Under the pieces are notes generated by a model, which searched no databases, had not been told where the DNA came from, and worked only from the letters and a program-made list of their open reading frames with translations. The translations under genes and the position numbers were made by a program. Shown piece after piece: positions 10,585 to 42,923 of a stretch of DNA of 42,923 bases; position 1 is the stretch's first letter, and every line of letters starts with the position of its first letter. The stretch is from a virus: the IMG/VR virus record IMGVR_UViG_3300047471_000528, positions 1 to 42,923 of that record; one strand, written 5' to 3'.

Positions 10585-10928
10585 TTCACTAACTCCAATT
10601 TACGAATGTCAAATACATTGTTTGTAGATAATGAATCTGCTACCAGTTTTCCCGCTTCATAACGTTCGGCGCGGAATAAAGGACCATTTACATGACCAAA
10701 ACCATAACTGTTACCATTTGAATAACAGCCAACTAAAAACACCATTAAATTTGTAGCATTGGTCAACGAGAGATTGAAGTCAATTCTAAGATTCTTTACA
10801 ATCTCTATTGTGTTTCCTGCTACAAAATCAGCTTTGTGATTATCAGCCCATTGTTTGAAATTCTTAACATCGGCTGAAATTCTCTTAGCTTTACCAGTTT
10901 TGGTATAGAATCGGTTTTCTTTAAACAT
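10581..10928 (-). CDS. Hypothetical protein (115 aa)
   Basis: A 115-residue protein starting MFKENRFYTKTGKAKRIS, with a helical KQWADNHKADFVAG segment, a hydrophobic NLMVFLVGCY stretch near residues 60-69 that is too short to be a clear membrane span, and NGPLFRAERYEAGKLVAD. It overlaps the upstream gene by 8 bases and is ATGA-coupled downstream. I do not recognise the family. Confidence 0.6.
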   Translation of the reverse strand: MFKENRFYTKTGKAKRISADVKNFKQWADNHKADFVAGNTIEIVKNLRIDFNLSLTNATNLMVFLVGCYSNGNSYGFGHVNGPLFRAERYEAGKLVADSLSTNNVFDIRKLELVK

Positions 10929-11247
10929 TCCCTAAATCCTCCTCAAATTTTCTATCTAAACCTACTTCAGATCCCTCTTGTCTTTGCTTTCGCAATTCTC
11001 TTAGCATTTTCCCTTTAGGTCCAAATGCTGATAATTGAAATTGTTCAGCGGGTGTTAAGGTTTTACCCGAATCCGTTTTTACTTGAGTCAAAATAACATG
11101 TCCATCTTTCCCGATTGGATTCCCTTCAGAATCTCTATATGTTTTCCTAATCCATCCTTTCCTACAGGGACGGCGCGGGATGATCTCGACATTAAATTCT
11201 GATTCAATCTGCTTTCGTTTTATTTTCTCTGCAATCTTTTTTTGCAT
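10921..11247 (-). CDS. First gene of the leftward operon: basic hypothetical protein
   Basis: A 108-residue protein if ATG 11245-11247 is used (MQKKIAEKIKRKQIE). In-frame GTG codons at 11295 and 11316 would extend it; 11316 is only about six bases from the predicted transcription start and 11295 lies inside the operator-like element, so a near-leaderless start cannot be excluded. No candidate has a clear Shine-Dalgarno sequence. The protein is strongly basic, with CRKGWIRKTYRDSEGNPI and GPKGKMLRELRKQRQ segments, consistent with RNA or DNA binding. As the first early product it could be a regulator of host or phage transcription (inference only). Confidence 0.6.
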   Translation of the reverse strand: MQKKIAEKIKRKQIESEFNVEIIPRRPCRKGWIRKTYRDSEGNPIGKDGHVILTQVKTDSGKTLTPAEQFQLSAFGPKGKMLRELRKQRQEGSEVGLDRKFEEDLGNV

Positions 11248-11291
11248 ACGTTTGAAAATTTTCGATTTATTTGAGTGATATTCCGTAGACA

Positions 11292-11319
11292 GCACGTTTT
11301 CAACATGCGGGTGCACGTC
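11292..11319 (-). promoter_or_regulatory. 28-bp operator-like element, copy 1 (minus orientation)
   Basis: Read on the minus strand the element begins GACGTGCAC, has a 10-base middle and ends AAAACGTGC. The same 9-base arms with the same total length occur at 11698-11725 on the plus strand, and overall 22 of 28 bases agree. This copy lies just downstream of the predicted start of leftward transcription, where a bound protein would block initiation or early elongation. Confidence 0.65.
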
Positions 11320-11328
11320 TACAGCATG

Positions 11329-11357
11329 AGTTTAGCATACGGGGGTATGGGTGTCAA
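11329..11357 (-). promoter_or_regulatory. Leftward early promoter, sigma-70 type
   Basis: On the minus strand TTGACA (11357-11352) is followed by a 17-base spacer and TAAACT (11334-11329), with TGC just before the -10 box (an extended -10 element). Transcription would start near 11322, immediately before the operator-like element and the first leftward gene. Of the promoters I can find upstream of the early operon this is the only strong one. Confidence 0.8.
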
Positions 11358-11413
11358 GGGCTATATTCCCTTTGGAATGAGTCACTTAGGGTCGTTCGAG
11401 GTCGGCCATGCGT

Positions 11414-11595
11414 GGGGGGTCTGGGTAGGGTATGCGTGCAGCCGTCCATACTACGTGTAACTCACTCATTCTAAAAGATTTATTTCATTTTCAGTATGAG
11501 AAGTGGTCTCTTGAATGTCTTTATTAATATCTCTTAATATATAATAGAATCAACATCTTACCCATACCATGAGCGGCTGCACCCATCGACCCCCC
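11414..11595. repeat. Nested GC-rich inverted repeats around an AT-rich core
   Basis: Two arms pair in order: GGGGGGTC (11414-11421) with GACCCCCC (11588-11595), and GTGCAGCCG (11436-11444) with CGGCTGCAC (11574-11582). They enclose roughly 100 AT-rich bases including TTATTAATATCTCTTAATAT near 11521. The outer and inner arms keep the same nesting order, so the structure could form a large cruciform or bind paired proteins. An origin or a looping regulatory structure is plausible. Confidence 0.6.
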
Positions 11596-11697
11596 CAACC
11601 AGGGTACAACACAGCACGACAATCACTCATAACTCACACATTCTACACTACTTACATATCACAACGTCTACACTACCGTATACATCAAATGTGCATA

Positions 11698-11725
11698 GAC
11701 GTGCACAGACGTGCTCAAAACGTGC
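11698..11725 (+). promoter_or_regulatory. 28-bp operator-like element, copy 2 (plus orientation)
   Basis: It begins GACGTGCAC and ends AAAACGTGC, as copy 1 does on the other strand. In this copy GTGC recurs at 11691, 11701, 11711 and 11722, about one DNA turn apart, so a protein could sit repeatedly on one helix face. It lies about 50 bases upstream of the rightward -35 box, a position that suits activation or a loop with copy 1. Confidence 0.65.
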
Positions 11726-11776
11726 AACCCCATGAAAACAAGCCACTTTTTTATTGATTTTATTTTCATTTTCCTA

Positions 11777-11805
11777 TTGACTCCCCCCATACATAATGTT
11801 ACTAT
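11777..11805 (+). promoter_or_regulatory. Rightward promoter, sigma-70 type
   Basis: TTGACT (11777-11782), a 17-base spacer rich in C, and TACTAT (11800-11805) preceded by TGT form an extended -10 promoter of the same design as the leftward one. The predicted start falls near 11811-11813, at or next to an ATG (11811) that would give a leaderless message. A frame opening at 11796 lies inside this promoter and cannot be the true start. Confidence 0.75.
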
Positions 11806-11810
11806 TACTC

Positions 11811-12401
11811 ATGTCAACAACTAGAACGGCTTTCATAATGACGCAAACACAATCGGATGTAGCGATGCAGGTCGGATCTAGTTTGTTAGTCAAAACACCT
11901 AAAGGAAAACGCAAAATGACACCCTCAGAAGTAACACCCAAGGTCGAAGTCCCTCGCATTAATCGGAATGTTTTCGATCTCGACTCGTTCGATTACGTTG
12001 ACCTGTTCAAGAATGTCCCCTTTCAAAAAGCGGTATCGGTCGAAGAAGCATTGACTCGGCTCGGTGGTGACTCCGCGAAATTGTTGGAAGCTGTCAACGA
12101 TGGTCTTTTGGCAGAAGCAAAGCGGGTTGCATCGCATGATAATTCGATTCCTTGGATGCAGGACGTTGAGGACGAAACTGGTAAAACGGTTGCTGAAGAA
12201 TTTGCCGGAACGGTTGCGGATTCCAAGACGGTTGGCGGAATGGTTCTGAACCTCGCGAAATCCGTCTACGGCTATAATAAAGCGGCTGCCGCGAAGGATA
12301 AAGCGGGCAAAGCGAAAGCCAAAGAACAGGCAATGGCTTTTATCGCTGGAAATGAGGTCATCAAGAACGGCTTGAAGGAAAACGCTGTTCCGCAGGACTA
12401 A
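11811..12401 (+). CDS. First rightward gene: Ala/Lys-rich hypothetical protein
   Basis: A 196-residue protein from ATG 11811, which coincides with the predicted transcription start (leaderless reading); ATG 11838 (MTQTQSD) is an alternative. Neither has a clear Shine-Dalgarno sequence. The N-terminal 50 residues are Lys/Pro/Val-rich and probably disordered. The middle has helices (VSVEEALTRLGGDSAKLLEAV, DGLLAEAKRVAS), and the C-terminus is an alanine/lysine helix (KAAAAKDKAGKAKAKEQAM). Codons look more GC-rich than in neighbouring genes. It has its own promoter and is followed by a hairpin, so it may be strongly expressed by itself. Function is unknown. Confidence 0.72.
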   Translation: MSTTRTAFIMTQTQSDVAMQVGSSLLVKTPKGKRKMTPSEVTPKVEVPRINRNVFDLDSFDYVDLFKNVPFQKAVSVEEALTRLGGDSAKLLEAVNDGLLAEAKRVASHDNSIPWMQDVEDETGKTVAEEFAGTVADSKTVGGMVLNLAKSVYGYNKAAAAKDKAGKAKAKEQAMAFIAGNEVIKNGLKENAVPQD

Positions 12402-12423
12402 CTAAGGTCTTTTTTTCCTTGCT

Positions 12424-12461
12424 AAACCTCCATACTTGGATTATTCTAGGTATGGAGGTTT
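12424..12461 (+). promoter_or_regulatory. 12-bp hairpin burying a Shine-Dalgarno sequence (attenuator or terminator)
   Basis: AAACCTCCATAC (12424-12435) pairs perfectly with GTATGGAGGTTT (12450-12461) around a 14-base loop. The 3' arm contains GGAGG (12454-12458), 10 bases before ATG 12469, so the hairpin hides the ribosome site of the next gene. The four T residues at 12459-12462, and the T7 run at about 12410, also allow weak termination after the first rightward gene. Confidence 0.65.
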
Positions 12462-12468
12462 TATCATT

Positions 12469-12660
12469 ATGACAGAATATGGTGAATTTCGCGTAGTGGC
12501 TGAGAAGTCTGATTTCGCGCAGGAGTTTATTTATGCTCCTGAGTATTCCATGAATGAGGGCGAAGCAACCCACGTGCAATCGGCTTTGTTTTTGGCACTA
12601 CACCAGCAGACTGTGATTCAATACCGTAGAGATTACAACGAAGAATGGCGGAATTGGTAA
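12469..12660 (+). CDS. Small acidic hypothetical protein (63 aa)
   Basis: Starts at ATG 12469 (MTEYGEFRVVAEKSDF), 10 bases after GGAGG, which is held in the 3' arm of a hairpin. An upstream in-frame start at 12436 lies in the hairpin loop and is unlikely. The protein is acidic, with EFIYAPEYSMNEGEATHVQSAL and a Tyr/Arg/Trp-rich end. No family is recognised. Expression is probably controlled by the hairpin. Confidence 0.6.
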   Translation: MTEYGEFRVVAEKSDFAQEFIYAPEYSMNEGEATHVQSALFLALHQQTVIQYRRDYNEEWRNW

Positions 12661-12661
12661 C

Positions 12662-12745
12662 ATGCGCGCCACATTCTACGATCTGGCTTGCGCGGCAATC
12701 ATCGTCTATTTTGTTCAGACGATCCTATTAGCTCTTGGAAAGTAA
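12662..12745 (+). CDS. 27-residue single-pass membrane peptide
   Basis: ATG 12662 is two bases after the previous stop (TAACATG) and the frame ends at TAA 12743-12745. The product, MRATFYDLACAAIIVYFVQT followed by ILLALGK, is one continuous hydrophobic helix with a charged residue at each end. It could be a membrane-active early peptide or a lysis accessory. Such short frames can arise by chance; the tight spacing and clean membrane profile are the evidence. Confidence 0.45.
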   Translation: MRATFYDLACAAIIVYFVQTILLALGK

Positions 12746-12766
12746 TAGTACTAAAGTCCTAATAGC

Positions 12767-12801
12767 AAGTACTGGTACTCCCCGAAAGAGTACTAGTACT
12801 T
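12767..12801 (+). promoter_or_regulatory. 14-bp hairpin upstream of a consensus Shine-Dalgarno
   Basis: AAGTACTGGTACTC (12767-12780) pairs with GAGTACTAGTACTT (12788-12801), with one G-T wobble and the loop CCCGAAA. No T run follows, so it is not an ordinary terminator. AGGAGG at 12807-12812 follows, but the next ATG (12835) is 22 bases away, too far for normal use. It may be an RNA regulatory or processing structure. Confidence 0.55.
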
Positions 12802-12834
12802 CGCCAGGAGGTCGGCCCTACAATCTTTAGATAT

Positions 12835-12963
12835 ATGTCAAAACTCAAACAAATCAAAAAGATTTTAAAAAAGATTCTGAAAAAGAAACCCAAACTCAAA
12901 GATCAAATTTATATGGGAGGTTGGGAAAATCAAGGTGGTAACTATTTCGACAAAAGAAAATAG
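12835..12963 (+). CDS. 42-residue basic peptide
   Basis: From ATG 12835 to TAG 12961-12963. The first half is a lysine-rich amphipathic helix (MSKLKQIKKILKKILKKK) and the second is Gly/Asn/Tyr-rich (MGGWENQGGNYFDKRK). The charge and helix resemble membrane- or nucleic-acid-binding peptides. The Shine-Dalgarno sequence is unclear: AGGAGG lies 22 bases upstream after a strong hairpin. It is a candidate small gene only. Confidence 0.45.
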   Translation: MSKLKQIKKILKKILKKKPKLKDQIYMGGWENQGGNYFDKRK

Positions 12964-13028
12964 TCTTTAGATCCATTCAAAAATAAAAATAAGAACTGTC
13001 AACTTCTTATCAAAAGGAAATTTCTGTT

Positions 13029-13253
13029 ATGAAAACTCCCCCAAATCCAAAGGAAAAAAAATTCCAAAAATTATTTGAAGAATTCCAGCGACTCCACGCC
13101 GAACTTTTAGAATTAGAAGAATCCGCTCGGCCGAATCCCGCGCTGATAATGAAAGTACACGCCGCGCGGGAAAGACTCGAACGGGAACTTCTCATGAAAC
13201 TCCATTTAGTAAAAGATTTCGAAACACTTCAGGAGATCCAAATCAAACCATGA
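13029..13253 (+). CDS. Short coiled-coil protein, hypothetical
   Basis: A 74-residue protein with a good Shine-Dalgarno sequence (AAAAGGAAA, about 8 bases before ATG). It is almost entirely helical and charged: KFQKLFEEFQRLHAELLELEES and AARERLERELLMKLHLVKD form coiled-coil heptads. The stop overlaps the next start by ATGA. It may be a small oligomeric regulator or a chaperone of the exported protein that follows; this is inference. Confidence 0.65.
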   Translation: MKTPPNPKEKKFQKLFEEFQRLHAELLELEESARPNPALIMKVHAARERLERELLMKLHLVKDFETLQEIQIKP

Positions 13254-13606
13254 AACTCAAAAATTTTTTATTTTTTTCCGCTTCACTTCTCTTGGCGCAA
13301 GCCCAGCCAATTTGCCGAATCATCAATTTTAGTACAAATGTAAAAGGAATTTCATTCGGCCCAACAAACACAACTGAACATTGTTTTATTTGGCTAAAAT
13401 CACCTGCACCGAACCAAATACAAATTGCTTGTTATACATCGACGAATCAAATTCTCCATAATGAGATTTCAACTCCAACAAATGGAATGTCAGGAAGTTG
13501 GATTTTCCCTGATGGAGCAATCAGTTGGTTAATTACTTTCAATAACCTTCAGGTGGTCGGCGCGGGATCAGATCATATTGAAGTTACAAAAAGTTGGACT
13601 TTCTAA
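13250..13606 (+). CDS. Exported protein with signal peptide, hypothetical
   Basis: A 118-residue protein with a clear Sec signal: MKLKNFLFFSASLLLAQAQP, with likely cleavage after AQA near residue 18. The mature part is beta-rich, with Cys residues near 22, 45 and 61 that could form a disulphide. Being secreted in infected cells, it could modify the envelope, act in superinfection exclusion or help lysis. It is coupled to the preceding coiled-coil gene. Confidence 0.65.
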   Translation: MKLKNFLFFSASLLLAQAQPICRIINFSTNVKGISFGPTNTTEHCFIWLKSPAPNQIQIACYTSTNQILHNEISTPTNGMSGSWIFPDGAISWLITFNNLQVVGAGSDHIEVTKSWTF

Positions 13607-13609
13607 CGA

Positions 13610-13882
13610 ATGTTAAAATTAAATAAAATGAGAAATCGAAGTGGTCAAAAGAATTTCCAATGTGATTTCTGTCCTACTCGAAATTCTTGGGTCAAACTTA
13701 TCCGAATTAGGGGCGAAGCACATCTGATGTGTCCCGAATGTATTGCAGAACTTGCTAGACAATGTAGATTAGAAAAGGAAAAAACTGATGCAATTAAAAT
13801 CGGCGCCACCAATGGAGCCATTAGCAATAGAGGAACTGGGAATCAGTCCTTACAAACAGAAACTCCTGAGAATGCGTCTTGA
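13610..13882 (+). CDS. Zinc-knuckle protein, hypothetical
   Basis: A 90-residue protein with CDFC near residues 18-21 and CPEC near 41-44, a four-cysteine zinc ribbon. ATG 13628 (MRNRSGQKNF) is an alternative start that would place the ribbon nearer the N-terminus. The C-terminal 30 residues are polar and overlap the next gene in another frame by 95 bases, which suggests that the tail is under weak constraint. Confidence 0.6.
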   Translation: MLKLNKMRNRSGQKNFQCDFCPTRNSWVKLIRIRGEAHLMCPECIAELARQCRLEKEKTDAIKIGATNGAISNRGTGNQSLQTETPENAS

Positions 13883-14039
13883 TGGATTTCTACCAAAACA
13901 AATTGCCCATTTAGAGAATCGTGCTCATGGAACTATTGATAATCATTTTCAACAAATTTTCCATAAGCACGAAACATCCAGCTTACTCGATTTTTTAATA
14001 AAAGTGGGATGGGTTAGAGTTATCTCTAAGCAAACTTAA
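13788..14039 (+). CDS. LuxR/GerE-type helix-turn-helix protein
   Basis: An 83-residue protein starting at ATG 13788 with AAAGGA 9 bases upstream. Residues about 25-70 fit the GerE/LuxR HTH pattern: LLRMRLDGFLPKQIAHLE, then a turn and a recognition helix (RAHGTIDNHFQQIFHKH), then LLDFLIKVGW. No receiver or ligand domain is present, so it is a stand-alone DNA-binding domain. It sits just before the candidate late promoter at 14067 and the packaging genes, so control of late transcription is plausible. The 5' end overlaps the zinc-knuckle gene. Confidence 0.7.
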   Translation: MQLKSAPPMEPLAIEELGISPYKQKLLRMRLDGFLPKQIAHLENRAHGTIDNHFQQIFHKHETSSLLDFLIKVGWVRVISKQT

Positions 14040-14066
14040 CTTATTGAATGGAAAGGAGATTGAGTC

Positions 14067-14096
14067 TTGACAAAGCACAAGCGACTCAAGTATACT
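14067..14096 (+). promoter_or_regulatory. Candidate late promoter, near-consensus sigma-70
   Basis: TTGACA (14067-14072), an 18-base spacer and TATACT (14091-14096) match the sigma-70 consensus at 11 of 12 positions. Transcription would begin near 14103, inside the gene that starts at the same TTG, and would serve the candidate small terminase, terL and the virion genes. It lies just after the LuxR-type HTH gene, a possible regulator. Confidence 0.55.
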
Positions 14097-14318
14097 GGTC
14101 TGTCACCCAAAGTGCAACCCAAATCAAAAGATGAGATTTACGCGGAATCAAGAATAAAAAATTCTCCTCTCCGCTTCGAAAAAACAATTACAGAGGTAGG
14201 AATTTTTGTATCTGATGAATTTCAACACATCAAGGATGCAAAGGTAATAAAACGTGAAACTCGATCCAAGTCAGATTCATCAAGTAGTGAAACAAGCGAC
14301 GCAGGGCCAAAAAGCTGA
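14067..14318 (+). CDS. Basic hypothetical protein with TTG start
   Basis: An 83-residue product. The TTG start is supported by AAGGAG 8 bases upstream. The protein is rich in Lys, Ser and Glu (MTKHKRLKYTGLSPKVQPKS, then a serine-rich C-terminus), so most of it looks disordered. Its first codons double as a near-consensus promoter. It overlaps the candidate small terminase by 65 bases. No family is recognised. Confidence 0.55.
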   Translation: MTKHKRLKYTGLSPKVQPKSKDEIYAESRIKNSPLRFEKTITEVGIFVSDEFQHIKDAKVIKRETRSKSDSSSSETSDAGPKS

Positions 14319-14562
14319 ATCTAAATCTTCTGACTTCAAAGATCTTCTTGAACGAAATGGTCTTTCAGAAGAAGAAGTTTTAGAAAGCATTGGTTCTGTA
14401 ATGCGCGGAGGGGAAACAGATCAGGTGCGTCTCCGCGCAGCCGAATTGGGAGCGAAACTTCATGGATTTATGCAACCTGAAGGATTGAATGTTCCCAATA
14501 TCACAATCGTAATTAAAGATGCGCAACCTGGTTCAATGAATTCCATTCTTATACCTCGATAA
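14254..14562 (+). CDS. Possible terminase small subunit
   Basis: A 102-residue protein from GTG 14254. After a polar leader it has a helix (FKDLLERNGLSEEEVLESI), a second helix (VRLRAAELGAKLHGFM) and a terminal NITIVIKDAQPG strand. This order (helix, R.RA.EL..KLHG, then a short I.I.I.D strand) resembles small terminase subunits, which recognise pac DNA and load the large subunit. The call is from pattern and position upstream of terL, about 2.6 kb away. A TerS normally lies nearer terL, so it could be another DNA-binding protein. Confidence 0.5.
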   Translation: MKLDPSQIHQVVKQATQGQKAESKSSDFKDLLERNGLSEEEVLESIGSVMRGGETDQVRLRAAELGAKLHGFMQPEGLNVPNITIVIKDAQPGSMNSILIPR

Positions 14563-14569
14563 GGAAAAT

Positions 14570-14830
14570 ATGTCAGCTCCTGCACAACCCAAACAAATCG
14601 AAACCTCTTCTCCGAATGCGGATCAGATAATTTACACTTTGCAATATCGGCGCGGGGACAACCCACATCCGATGCAAAAGAATTTCAGAGCATCCTCCGA
14701 GTTGAAGATTCCTCAACTTGTCGAGAGATGTAAAACGTATTGCACCAACATGAACTACAGATTTATTTCTGTGGGTCCTTGGCTTTCTGATCTTGCAATG
14801 GATGAACAGAAACAACAGCAACTTGGTTAG
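14570..14830 (+). CDS. Hypothetical protein (86 aa)
   Basis: The ATG at 14570 follows AAGGAAA closely. The 86-residue protein has a core RASSELKIPQLVERCKTYCTNMNYRFISVGPWLSDL, a pattern I have seen in uncharacterised phage proteins near packaging genes. One GGCGCGG motif lies inside the coding sequence. A small alpha/beta fold is likely; no activity can be assigned. Confidence 0.6.
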   Translation: MSAPAQPKQIETSSPNADQIIYTLQYRRGDNPHPMQKNFRASSELKIPQLVERCKTYCTNMNYRFISVGPWLSDLAMDEQKQQQLG

Positions 14831-14837
14831 GAGACCT

Positions 14838-15182
14838 GTGAAAAAATTATTTTTTATTTCAATTTTGTTTCTCTCAAGTTGTGCCAAACCAACGGTTCAA
14901 CATCCAGGTGCCTTGAATTCTTTCGATAACAATGCTTACGACACATTGCGAGTCGAAGAAAAAACACTGCTTTCAATAAAAGCAGACCTACCTACAACCC
15001 CGCTATTAACCCCAGCCTACAATTTGGCAAAAGAGCAATACAATACTACCATTGCAGCTTACAAAACTTACCATCTGGCTTTGCAAGCTGGTTCAAATCC
15101 TGATACTACTGCTCTTTCTGCCGCAATAACAGATTTAGTGGCTAGAGTTGCTGCAATCTTTAAGGTTGGTCCAACAAAATGA
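14838..15182 (+). CDS. Lipoprotein, possible lysis (outer spanin-like) or envelope protein
   Basis: A GTG start at 14838 with AGGAG four bases upstream gives 114 residues with a lipobox: MKKLFFISILFLSSCAKP, lipidated Cys at position 15. The mature part is helical (a long segment from TLLSIKADL to ARVAAIFKV). A longer in-frame start at 14793 would bury the signal and is rejected. A lipoprotein could be an outer spanin or an exclusion protein; no adjacent inner spanin is obvious. Confidence 0.68.
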   Translation: MKKLFFISILFLSSCAKPTVQHPGALNSFDNNAYDTLRVEEKTLLSIKADLPTTPLLTPAYNLAKEQYNTTIAAYKTYHLALQAGSNPDTTALSAAITDLVARVAAIFKVGPTK

Positions 15183-15373
15183 GAACCTTTGAACAAATAC
15201 TTGCTGATTTACAACTTGCTGCACAAGTCACTGCATCGACTGGAATTCCAGATGTATCACAGGGCGCGGCTATTGCAGCCAGTTTGCTTAAAATTGCGCA
15301 AACCGCAGTGAAAGCACATCAAGATATTATTGGTGAACCTCTGGATTTGAATTTGCTGCAACCAATTGACTGA
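15179..15373 (+). CDS. Small helical hypothetical protein (64 aa)
   Basis: The start overlaps the lipoprotein stop by ATGA and its stop overlaps the next ATG, so it is tightly coupled. The 64 residues are mostly alanine-rich helix (ILADLQLAAQVTAS, GAAIAASLLKIAQTAVKAHQDI). It could be an amphipathic membrane-associated or structural helper protein. Nothing else is recognised. Confidence 0.6.
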   Translation: MRTFEQILADLQLAAQVTASTGIPDVSQGAAIAASLLKIAQTAVKAHQDIIGEPLDLNLLQPID

Positions 15374-15639
15374 TGAAGAAAATTGATCCCATCCTCTATT
15401 TACTCACAGGACTTGTCCTGCTGTATACTGGAGTAATCATCTTTGTAGCTATTTGGCTGAAGAATGATGGGCAAACTTTTCAAATTGTTTCGAATCTCGC
15501 ATCTGGATTTGCAGGTTCTCTTTTAACCCGGATTAATCCGACGCGACCTAACACAGATGCAGTCGATGCTTCTATCAAGAAAATAACAGACGTACACACA
15601 GAATCACAAAGTCCTTTAACTGCTGAAAAGAAGGATTAA
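15373..15639 (+). CDS. Small membrane protein, holin candidate
   Basis: An 88-residue protein with one strong transmembrane helix at about residues 7-28 (ILYLLTGLVLLYTGVIIFVAIW), a short basic turn (LKNDG), a weaker hydrophobic stretch at about 38-52 and a charged C-terminal tail. This profile fits a small holin or holin-like protein, but the lysozyme is 15 kb away, so the assignment is tentative. It is flanked by one-base overlaps on both sides. Confidence 0.6.
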   Translation: MKKIDPILYLLTGLVLLYTGVIIFVAIWLKNDGQTFQIVSNLASGFAGSLLTRINPTRPNTDAVDASIKKITDVHTESQSPLTAEKKD

Positions 15640-16142
15640 TGAACATTCAAGGGATACTAGCAAATCTGATGGGGAGTAAACTTACTCCCACTGTACGCAC
15701 AGAACCAGGCGTAACTTATGGACCTGCGGTATCCCTTGTTTCGCGAACTCCAATTGATTTCGATGAAAATATGCCAGCCAATCGGCAAGGTGAATATTTC
15801 CCAGGCACAAATCGAATTCATGTGAATCCAAATTCTAAAGGATTCCCAACATCACAAGTTTTGAAACATGAACAAATTCATGCAATTTTAAGTCAACTTC
15901 CACAAGGTGGAGCACCTCAGACTACTTCCGCGCCAGGATTTATGGATATTGCAAGACGTATTCAGGGAACTCGCGCGGGAGATGTGCAAGATGAAGTTCC
16001 TGCATATATGGCGCAATCTCCGACTTCTCAGTTTTATGGCGTTTCTGACGATCAACGGAATGCTTATGTGCAAGGTTTGGCAGCGCAACTTCAGAAATTA
16101 GATCCTGGTCTCGCTGCGAGATTTCAGCGACTTTCTAAATAG
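15639..16142 (+). CDS. HExxH zinc metallopeptidase-like protein
   Basis: A 167-residue protein with the zinc-protease motif HEQIH at residues 77-81 (VLKHEQIHAIL) and a downstream acid, E119 (DVQDEVPAYMAQ), that could be the third ligand as in gluzincin-type folds. Upstream strands (GEYFPGTNRIHVNP) precede the motif in the usual way. It could be a maturation protease for prohead or scaffold, or act on cell-wall peptides. Its location before terL and portal favours virion morphogenesis. There is no signal peptide. Confidence 0.7.
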   Translation: MNIQGILANLMGSKLTPTVRTEPGVTYGPAVSLVSRTPIDFDENMPANRQGEYFPGTNRIHVNPNSKGFPTSQVLKHEQIHAILSQLPQGGAPQTTSAPGFMDIARRIQGTRAGDVQDEVPAYMAQSPTSQFYGVSDDQRNAYVQGLAAQLQKLDPGLAARFQRLSK

Positions 16143-16151
16143 GAGTTTGAA

Positions 16152-16403
16152 ATGGCTTCAGTGAATAAAACTGTAAGAGATGTGGCTGCGAAGATGTCAG
16201 CGCCTCCCGCGCCGAAAAAAGGGCAGGGGAAACGAGTTTCTGTGGAGAAAATGAAAGGTGGCTATTTGTCCGAAACCACTTATAAAGGATCTCACGAAGG
16301 TCCCCATTATTACCCACCTGATAAAGCTGTTCACAAAAATCTCAGTTCTGTAAAACAGCATATGGCACACGCATTTAATGATGCTGATGCTGACGAGGCT
16401 TAA
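16152..16403 (+). CDS. Hypothetical protein (83 aa)
   Basis: ATG 16152 has AGGAG about 6 bases upstream. The N-terminal third is basic and Ala/Pro-rich (AAKMSAPPAPKKGQGKR); the rest contains KMKGGYLSETTYKG, HYYPPDKAVHKNL and a final acidic ADADEA. Similar small proteins occur next to the following KHPGFKAVQK-type gene in other phages, from memory. It is probably a minor virion or morphogenesis protein. Confidence 0.6.
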   Translation: MASVNKTVRDVAAKMSAPPAPKKGQGKRVSVEKMKGGYLSETTYKGSHEGPHYYPPDKAVHKNLSSVKQHMAHAFNDADADEA

Positions 16404-42125: not shown

Positions 42126-42923
42126 TTATATTCAAATCCTTTCAAATTTTTCCAATTCTCACTTGACCATTCTGCTTCCATTGGTATCACTAATCTAAAA
42201 TCTCGCGAGAGAGAGCAATTTGTGAAATCAATTGGCGTAACGACGTTTCGTTCAAAGATTCTTGAATATTCTTCCTTTCTTCCTTTCTCAACTTCTGCAA
42301 GGCAACCGTCATGAGCTTCCACAATTGGGCGTGCCCAACTGCCGCATTCTTCGAAAGTTGATATAAAGGAAAACTTAAGCTGGTCCCCAACAATTCCCTG
42401 CGGAAGTGTGGAAATTGCCTCATTAATAGTATGGTCATCAATTCTTCCGTAGAAATCACGCCTTCTTCCATTAGGGAATATAAGCGTTCGAGTTTCTTTG
42501 ACATGCTTTCCGACTTCACGATGGAATACTCCTCTTATGTTAGGTTGACGATTATGAAAGGTTTTGAGAATTTTCGTACAATCTCGAATAGGTTTGTGGA
42601 GCATCATCATTAGACGATCCTCCTTCATATTCCGTTCCCCCGCGTGTCTTACAGTTTTGCTTGCGTGGTAGCGATCCTCACCTGTTCCTGTTTCAGGGTT
42701 TATCCAGAGTCCTTTTTTTATTTCAGAAGGATCACAATTATAGACCCAACTACCTGTAAGACGGTGAATACCGACAGGCCCATCAAAAACTTCCAATATT
42801 TCAAAATCCTTCGCGAGGACCGCATCGACGCGCGCTTCAGCCTGTGATAAATCACACTCAACAAAATCATATCCAGGGCTAGGGACGAACATTGAACGTA
42901 TATCTTTTCCATATTCCTCTCCT
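42122..42923 (-). CDS. DNA polymerase I (family A), C-terminal palm/fingers part (continues at base 1-1773)
   Basis: This is the 3' part of the polymerase whose 5' part lies at 1-1773. The frame is open through the repeated 127 bases. In the numbering of the full protein, motif A is CDLSQAEAR with D573 binding metal, the O-helix is near residues 636-650 (SKTVRHAG, where many phage enzymes have HA instead of FG) and motif C is VEAHDGC, keeping the H-D pair but with Gly instead of the usual Glu after it. The ORF starting with M at 42892 is an internal methionine, not a true start. Confidence 0.9.
   Translation of the reverse strand, partial: GEEYGKDIRSMFVPSPGYDFVECDLSQAEARVDAVLAKDFEILEVFDGPVGIHRLTGSWVYNCDPSEIKKGLWINPETGTGEDRYHASKTVRHAGERNMKEDRLMMMLHKPIRDCTKILKTFHNRQPNIRGVFHREVGKHVKETRTLIFPNGRRRDFYGRIDDHTINEAISTLPQGIVGDQLKFSFISTFEECGSWARPIVEAHDGCLAEVEKGRKEEYSRIFERNVVTPIDFTNCSLSRDFRLVIPMEAEWSSENWKNLKGFEYK
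42797..42923. repeat. Terminal direct repeat, right copy (circular closure)
   Basis: Identical to bases 1-127. Counting the sequence once, the genome has 42,796 unique bases. The polymerase gene uses either copy and becomes continuous when the two ends are joined. Confidence 0.95.

Follow-up and report, generated by a model that had tools for sequence, protein, structure and literature searches.

Divergent transcription units governed from one short region are familiar from several well-described systems. In phage phi29, the switch between early and late transcription depends on the protein p4, which represses early and activates late promoters; its sites lie between divergent promoters, and one set of them overlaps an early promoter. 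Lambda-type systems place multiple operators around divergent promoters, and in iteron-type origins of replication the repeats lie beside an AT-rich stretch. In the Xanthomonas phage Xp10, a single intergenic region divides the leftward from the rightward genes and holds all six promoters, some of which serve the phage's own RNA polymerase, and an AT-rich tract has been suggested as a possible origin (PMC2248197).

The locus analysed here belongs to the virus record IMGVR_UViG_3300047471_000528, of which the whole stretch of 42,923 bases is referred to as the window; loci compared with it carry L-numbers. Its first and last 127 bp are identical (1-127 and 42797-42923) and a DNA polymerase A gene spans the junction of this end repeat, from which it follows that the map is circular and complete at 42,796 bp. 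A leftward block starts at 11.3 kb, passes through the junction and ends at 39.4 kb; it contains genes for a SNF2-type helicase, a PD-(D/E)XK exonuclease, a Sak4-like protein, a DUF3987-type primase and the DNA polymerase A, while a rightward block extends from 11.8 to 39.0 kb and includes the terminase and portal genes. All leftward genes are divided from all rightward genes by a single intergenic region, the sole point of divergence. The window is a complete phage genome, apparently a lytic one, with two divergent transcription blocks that start at this region. No lysogeny genes were recognised among the proteins scanned, and no phage RNA polymerase gene was found among about 30 of its proteins. 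A search of 50,697 phage records gave no direct DNA match to the window, and none of 84,980 cellular genomes scanned with the terminase contained a relative. The relatives used below were collected via the terminase and the first rightward gene.

By comparison of architectures, the Xp10 regulatory region seems to be the closest known counterpart. Both phages have a single dividing intergenic region with the promoters of both blocks (predicted ones in the window), whereas no description of such a palindrome or of a RACGTGC array was found for Xp10. The likeness is one of layout and carries no sign of a shared ancestry of the sites. What the window has in common with phi29 is that putative regulator sites lie between divergent early and late promoters and that some of them overlap the early promoter; however, the sequences are unrelated and the arrays in the window are direct repeats one helical turn apart. 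Multiple putative operators around divergent promoters also recall lambda, but the window has neither an adjacent repressor gene nor recognised lysogeny genes, and its palindromes are 29 bp long and about 94 bp apart.

We consider it likely that positions 11292-11805 form a central transcription control region that combines divergent promoters, RACGTGC operator arrays and palindromes bound by a second, dimeric protein. Uncultured phages of this type would thus probably run their whole genome from about 500 bp. The predicted leftward promoter P_L (11329-11357, minus strand) reads TTGACA-17-TAAACT with a TG before the -10 element and can be aligned in eight phages. The predicted rightward promoter P_R (11777-11805, plus strand) reads TTGACT-17-TACTAT and is matched in L002 and L003. 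Both were assigned by consensus match plus conservation in relatives; a generic promoter scan also picks them up, but the scan alone does not rise above shuffled sequences, and the two predictions are better supported by conservation. The first rightward ATG (11811) lies only 5 nt past the -10 element of P_R in the window, L002 and L003, and the P_R transcript is probably leaderless in these three phages. Ribosome-binding sites are present in the more distant L024, L034 and L042.

The first-pass annotation had described two 28-bp elements in inverted orientation with 22 bases in common, one on either side of this region, and had proposed them as sites of a regulator that could loop the DNA between them and repress or switch the two operons. 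The pair was recovered as described, and a repeat finder extended it to 30 nt with 24 matches (80%). The left arm (11292-11321, minus strand) contains RACGTGC units at 11320-11313 (AGACGTGC) and 11299-11292 (AAACGTGC), begins just downstream of P_L and spans the start and the first ~30 bases of leftward transcription. The right arm (11696-11725, plus strand) holds three units at 11697, 11707 and 11718, in steps of 10 and 11 bp, and stops roughly 50 bp before the P_R -35 element. The GTGC spacings of 10, 10 and 11 reported earlier are likewise correct (GTGC at 11691, 11701, 11711 and 11722). In a scan of the whole genome, no other inverted pair with at least 24 of 30 matches lay within 700 bp, and the local alignment score of the arms (30) was exceeded by one of 500 shuffles of the region. 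The arms are built from RACGTGC units at steps of 10, 11 or 21 bp. The real region contains a run of three such units, while runs of at least two at 10- or 11-bp steps occurred in none of 5,000 region shuffles and none of 100 genome shuffles. All three exact copies of AGACGTGC in the window fall within the control region, a count that is weak by itself since six of 100 shuffles also reached three. In a search of viral contigs for RACGTGC triplets, 17 matches were obtained; one is the known relative L003, and nearly all others resemble coding microsatellites.

Arrays of this type recur in the control regions of L002, L003, L024 and L026. Phased clusters are present there in L003, L024 and L026, as in the window, and nowhere else in these loci, while L002 has single sites in the same places. 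The right arm is conserved in L002 (in degenerate form), L003, L024 and L026 and the left arm in L002; in L003 the arm units appear in a different order. The refuting outcome named in the first-pass annotation, arms that are missing or unrelated in close relatives, was therefore not observed. The more distant L022, L034, L042, L044, L045, L056 and L057 do not contain the arrays. Measured from the start of the P_L -35 element, the left unit begins at 37 bp in the window and L002, just downstream of the -10 element, and at 15-16 bp in L024 and L026, which places it within the promoter spacer. The offset between the two phage pairs corresponds to two helix turns, as would be expected of an operator that has to keep the same helical face with respect to RNA polymerase. 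The arrays are most likely operators and, since either position would block P_L, we infer that their regulator would repress this promoter. Between the right arm and P_R lie about 80 to 300 bp, depending on the phage, which weakens the case for a direct control of P_R.

As previously stated, no obvious repressor gene flanks the region: neither neighbouring gene matches an HTH family. The first leftward gene (10921-11247, minus strand) has no family match and, used as a probe, found no relative in viral contigs; a start at ATG 11247 is more likely than one at GTG 11316, a position within the left arm. The first rightward gene, R1 (11811-12401, plus strand), adjoins the control region in about 15 relatives, and its product is 31-39% identical to that of the window in L024, L026, L022, L034 and L042. 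R1 was rejected as the binder, because its fold model (pLDDT 71.5, pTM 0.43) matched nothing in the PDB or among viral models and because carriers of the palindrome such as KL1 lack it. The suggestion that a LuxR-type HTH protein could be the regulator can be kept only in a weakened form. The small protein encoded at 13788-14039 (plus strand) is LuxR/GerE-like with a Pfam GerE match below the cut-off, and it occurs in the window, L002, L003, L026 and L022 but is missing from L024, which has RACGTGC sites. It is thus a weak candidate, and its imperfect association with the sites counts against the transcriptional reading.

Motif discovery on the control regions of the relatives (consensus CGTAAGTCCTTNATNATNAAGGACTTACG) revealed a second set of sites that the first-pass annotation had overlooked. 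The control region of the window contains five imperfect 29-bp palindromes of the type TAASYCCTT-N7-AAGGRSTTA: palindrome 1 at 11362-11390 (centre ~11376), palindrome 2 at 11456-11484 (~11470), the weak palindrome 3 at 11534-11562 (~11548), palindrome 4 at 11628-11656 (~11642) and palindrome 5 at 11723-11751 (~11737). Their centres are mostly ~94 bp apart, with spacings of 94, 78, 94 and 95 bp. Palindrome 5 abuts the right arm and lies ~40 bp upstream of the P_R -35 element. Between palindromes 2 and 4 is an AT-rich core (11511-11550) with 85% A+T. With a matrix score of at least 9, four palindromes are found inside the control region and none in the remaining 42.3 kb, a count that is descriptive only because these sequences also contributed to the training of the matrix. 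The palindromes recur in every relative and are more widely conserved than the RACGTGC arms. The centre of palindrome 1 lies ~19 bp upstream of the P_L -35 element in the window (about position -54), and this distance is kept at 18-19 bp in eight phages (the window, L002, L024, L026, L022, L034, L042 and L096), although R1 has diverged considerably in five of them (L024, L026, L022, L034 and L042; see above). It amounts to 31 bp in L056 and L044 and to 42 bp in L057, that is, it changes in steps of one helix turn. Pooled over all carriers, the palindrome-promoter register is only mildly enriched (34 pairs compared to 20.7 expected), and we thus claim it only for the family of the window.

Together, these features are best read as control in two layers. 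Of the two sigma-70-type promoters, one would serve the replication genes of the leftward block and the other the structural genes of the rightward block. In the close family of the window, a regulator would bind the RACGTGC units along a single face of the helix, repressing the early replication genes from its sites over P_L and either repressing or activating from those upstream of P_R. A second, more widely used dimeric protein would occupy the 29-bp palindromes, about nine helix turns apart, and through palindrome 1 could contact P_L in a fixed helical register. This scheme concerns P_L and P_R and leaves room for further promoters inside the blocks. It is drawn from sequence throughout: the sites with their phasing, uniqueness, conservation and register with P_L are shown, whereas protein binding, the direction of control and the proteins involved are inferred.

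To what extent the palindrome is used by other viruses was estimated from its 17-base half AAGTCCTTTAGAATCAA, which at least 120 viral loci contain, compared to five for a scrambled 17-mer of equal composition, in a scan with this one scrambled control and over redundant contigs. The other half, which had not been searched for, showed all five tested bases in 49 of 102 distinct contexts (0.5% expected), although some of these contexts may be related and the counts are not all independent. Full sites lie inside open reading frames in 8.5% of cases, in contrast to a background of 66%. The half-sites vary independently and do not covary, which fits a site for a protein dimer and led us to reject an RNA hairpin or a cruciform. 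Isolated phages of Burkholderia, Stenotrophomonas, Morganella and Aeromonas carry matches in intergenic DNA. Taken singly, these short BLAST matches are weak (E 0.02 to 4), but most of them fall between genes, as in KL1, WTB, Henu15, A1432, BUCT626, 62AhydR11PP, JS26 and others. Matches in Synechococcus phages and ICP1 are inside genes and look like chance, and those in E. coli (E = 2, one short place per genome) were treated as chance as well. A literature search with the palindrome string and its halves returned only primers and unrelated sequences, and no paper was found that names the element.

We tentatively propose that the palindrome could be a control element in general use among bacterial viruses and some plasmids and not described before, through which phages without related genes would use one common, possibly host-encoded, protein to drive or time early expression or replication. 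It is a DNA element common to phages that have no gene in common. Its binding protein, once found, would be a phage regulator in wide use or else a host protein on which phages depend, and the finding would point to the control regions or origins of many uncultured phages.

It is possible, if doubtful, that the binder is entirely a host factor whose site is exploited by phages and plasmids, with no binder encoded by the phage. This would fit the absence of any gene family common to all carriers (the commonest, SF2 helicase, is present in 13 of 59 loci) and the several terminase types among them. A SNF2 helicase was rejected as a partner because it is missing from about half of the long carriers. 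The few plasmid matches (E 0.001-0.01 at best) include two intergenic ones near transfer genes, near the oriT genes of IncW R7K and beside a mobilization gene of Bordetella BPP5P1, which are also in line with a host protein. However, such a protein would be expected to have sites in host genomes, and 257 Gb of cellular genomes yielded only two matches to the 24-base form. Both of these matches (L206 and L207) are on MAG contigs, one of Anaerolineae and one an 8-kb 'Alteromonadales' contig; these contigs may themselves be viral.

Whether instead of or in addition to transcriptional control, a role of the region as replication origin, with palindromes and RACGTGC arrays acting as initiator iterons around an AT-rich unwinding element, seems rather unlikely to us. 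As in iteron-type origins, the repeats adjoin an AT-rich stretch, and an AT-rich core (82-92% A+T) is present next to the repeats in every relative with a complete region. A+T of at least 90% is found near 13% of full sites compared to 3.4% of control intergenic positions, and the leftward block contains the helicase, exonuclease, Sak4-like, primase and DNA polymerase genes listed above. KL1 (L208, 5921-5965) shows an origin-like arrangement, in which the palindrome has tandem ATTAAAAGTCCT-like repeats and an AT-rich tract as neighbours and a primase gene is close by. In contrast to iteron origins, no DnaA box (9-mer, up to one mismatch) was detected from 10632 to 16240 and no initiator family is recognised among the neighbouring genes. 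GC skew stays flat between 11 and 17 kb and tracks gene direction, the palindrome is single in many unrelated carriers, and the strict register with P_L is a demand of transcription and not of initiation. Transcriptional control is the role best supported by the available features, and origin function is possible.

The regulator-type sites of the first-pass annotation, helix-phased and in a divergent control region, were borne out, but the looping proposed between them was not. A single oligomeric regulator bridging 11.3 and 11.7 kb appears improbable: the arms are inverted and ~36 helix turns apart in the window and L002 (~377 and 379 bp), yet the distance is ~322-343 bp in L024 and 341-395 bp in L026, so that no constant helical phase is kept, and L003 differs in unit order. 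A role of the left arm as a leader hairpin in leftward RNA is very hard to maintain. A GUAGAC/GUCUAC stem can form in the window, but z is -1.1 there and -1.3 in L002 with a different stem, no Rfam match was obtained, and in L024 and L026 the left-arm unit is located ahead of the transcribed part.

Two further conserved features were observed downstream of R1. An 86-aa protein encoded upstream of the terminase (14570-14830) is conserved, with 34 matches among the loci of the relatives. A non-coding segment at 12758-12832, for which no overlapping Rfam match was found, is 93% identical over 75 bp to L003 (1153-1227). It contains a 14-bp hairpin (AAGTACTGGTACTC / GAGTACTAGTACTT; z -3.1) followed by a conserved GGTCGGCCCTAC and is a candidate structured RNA.
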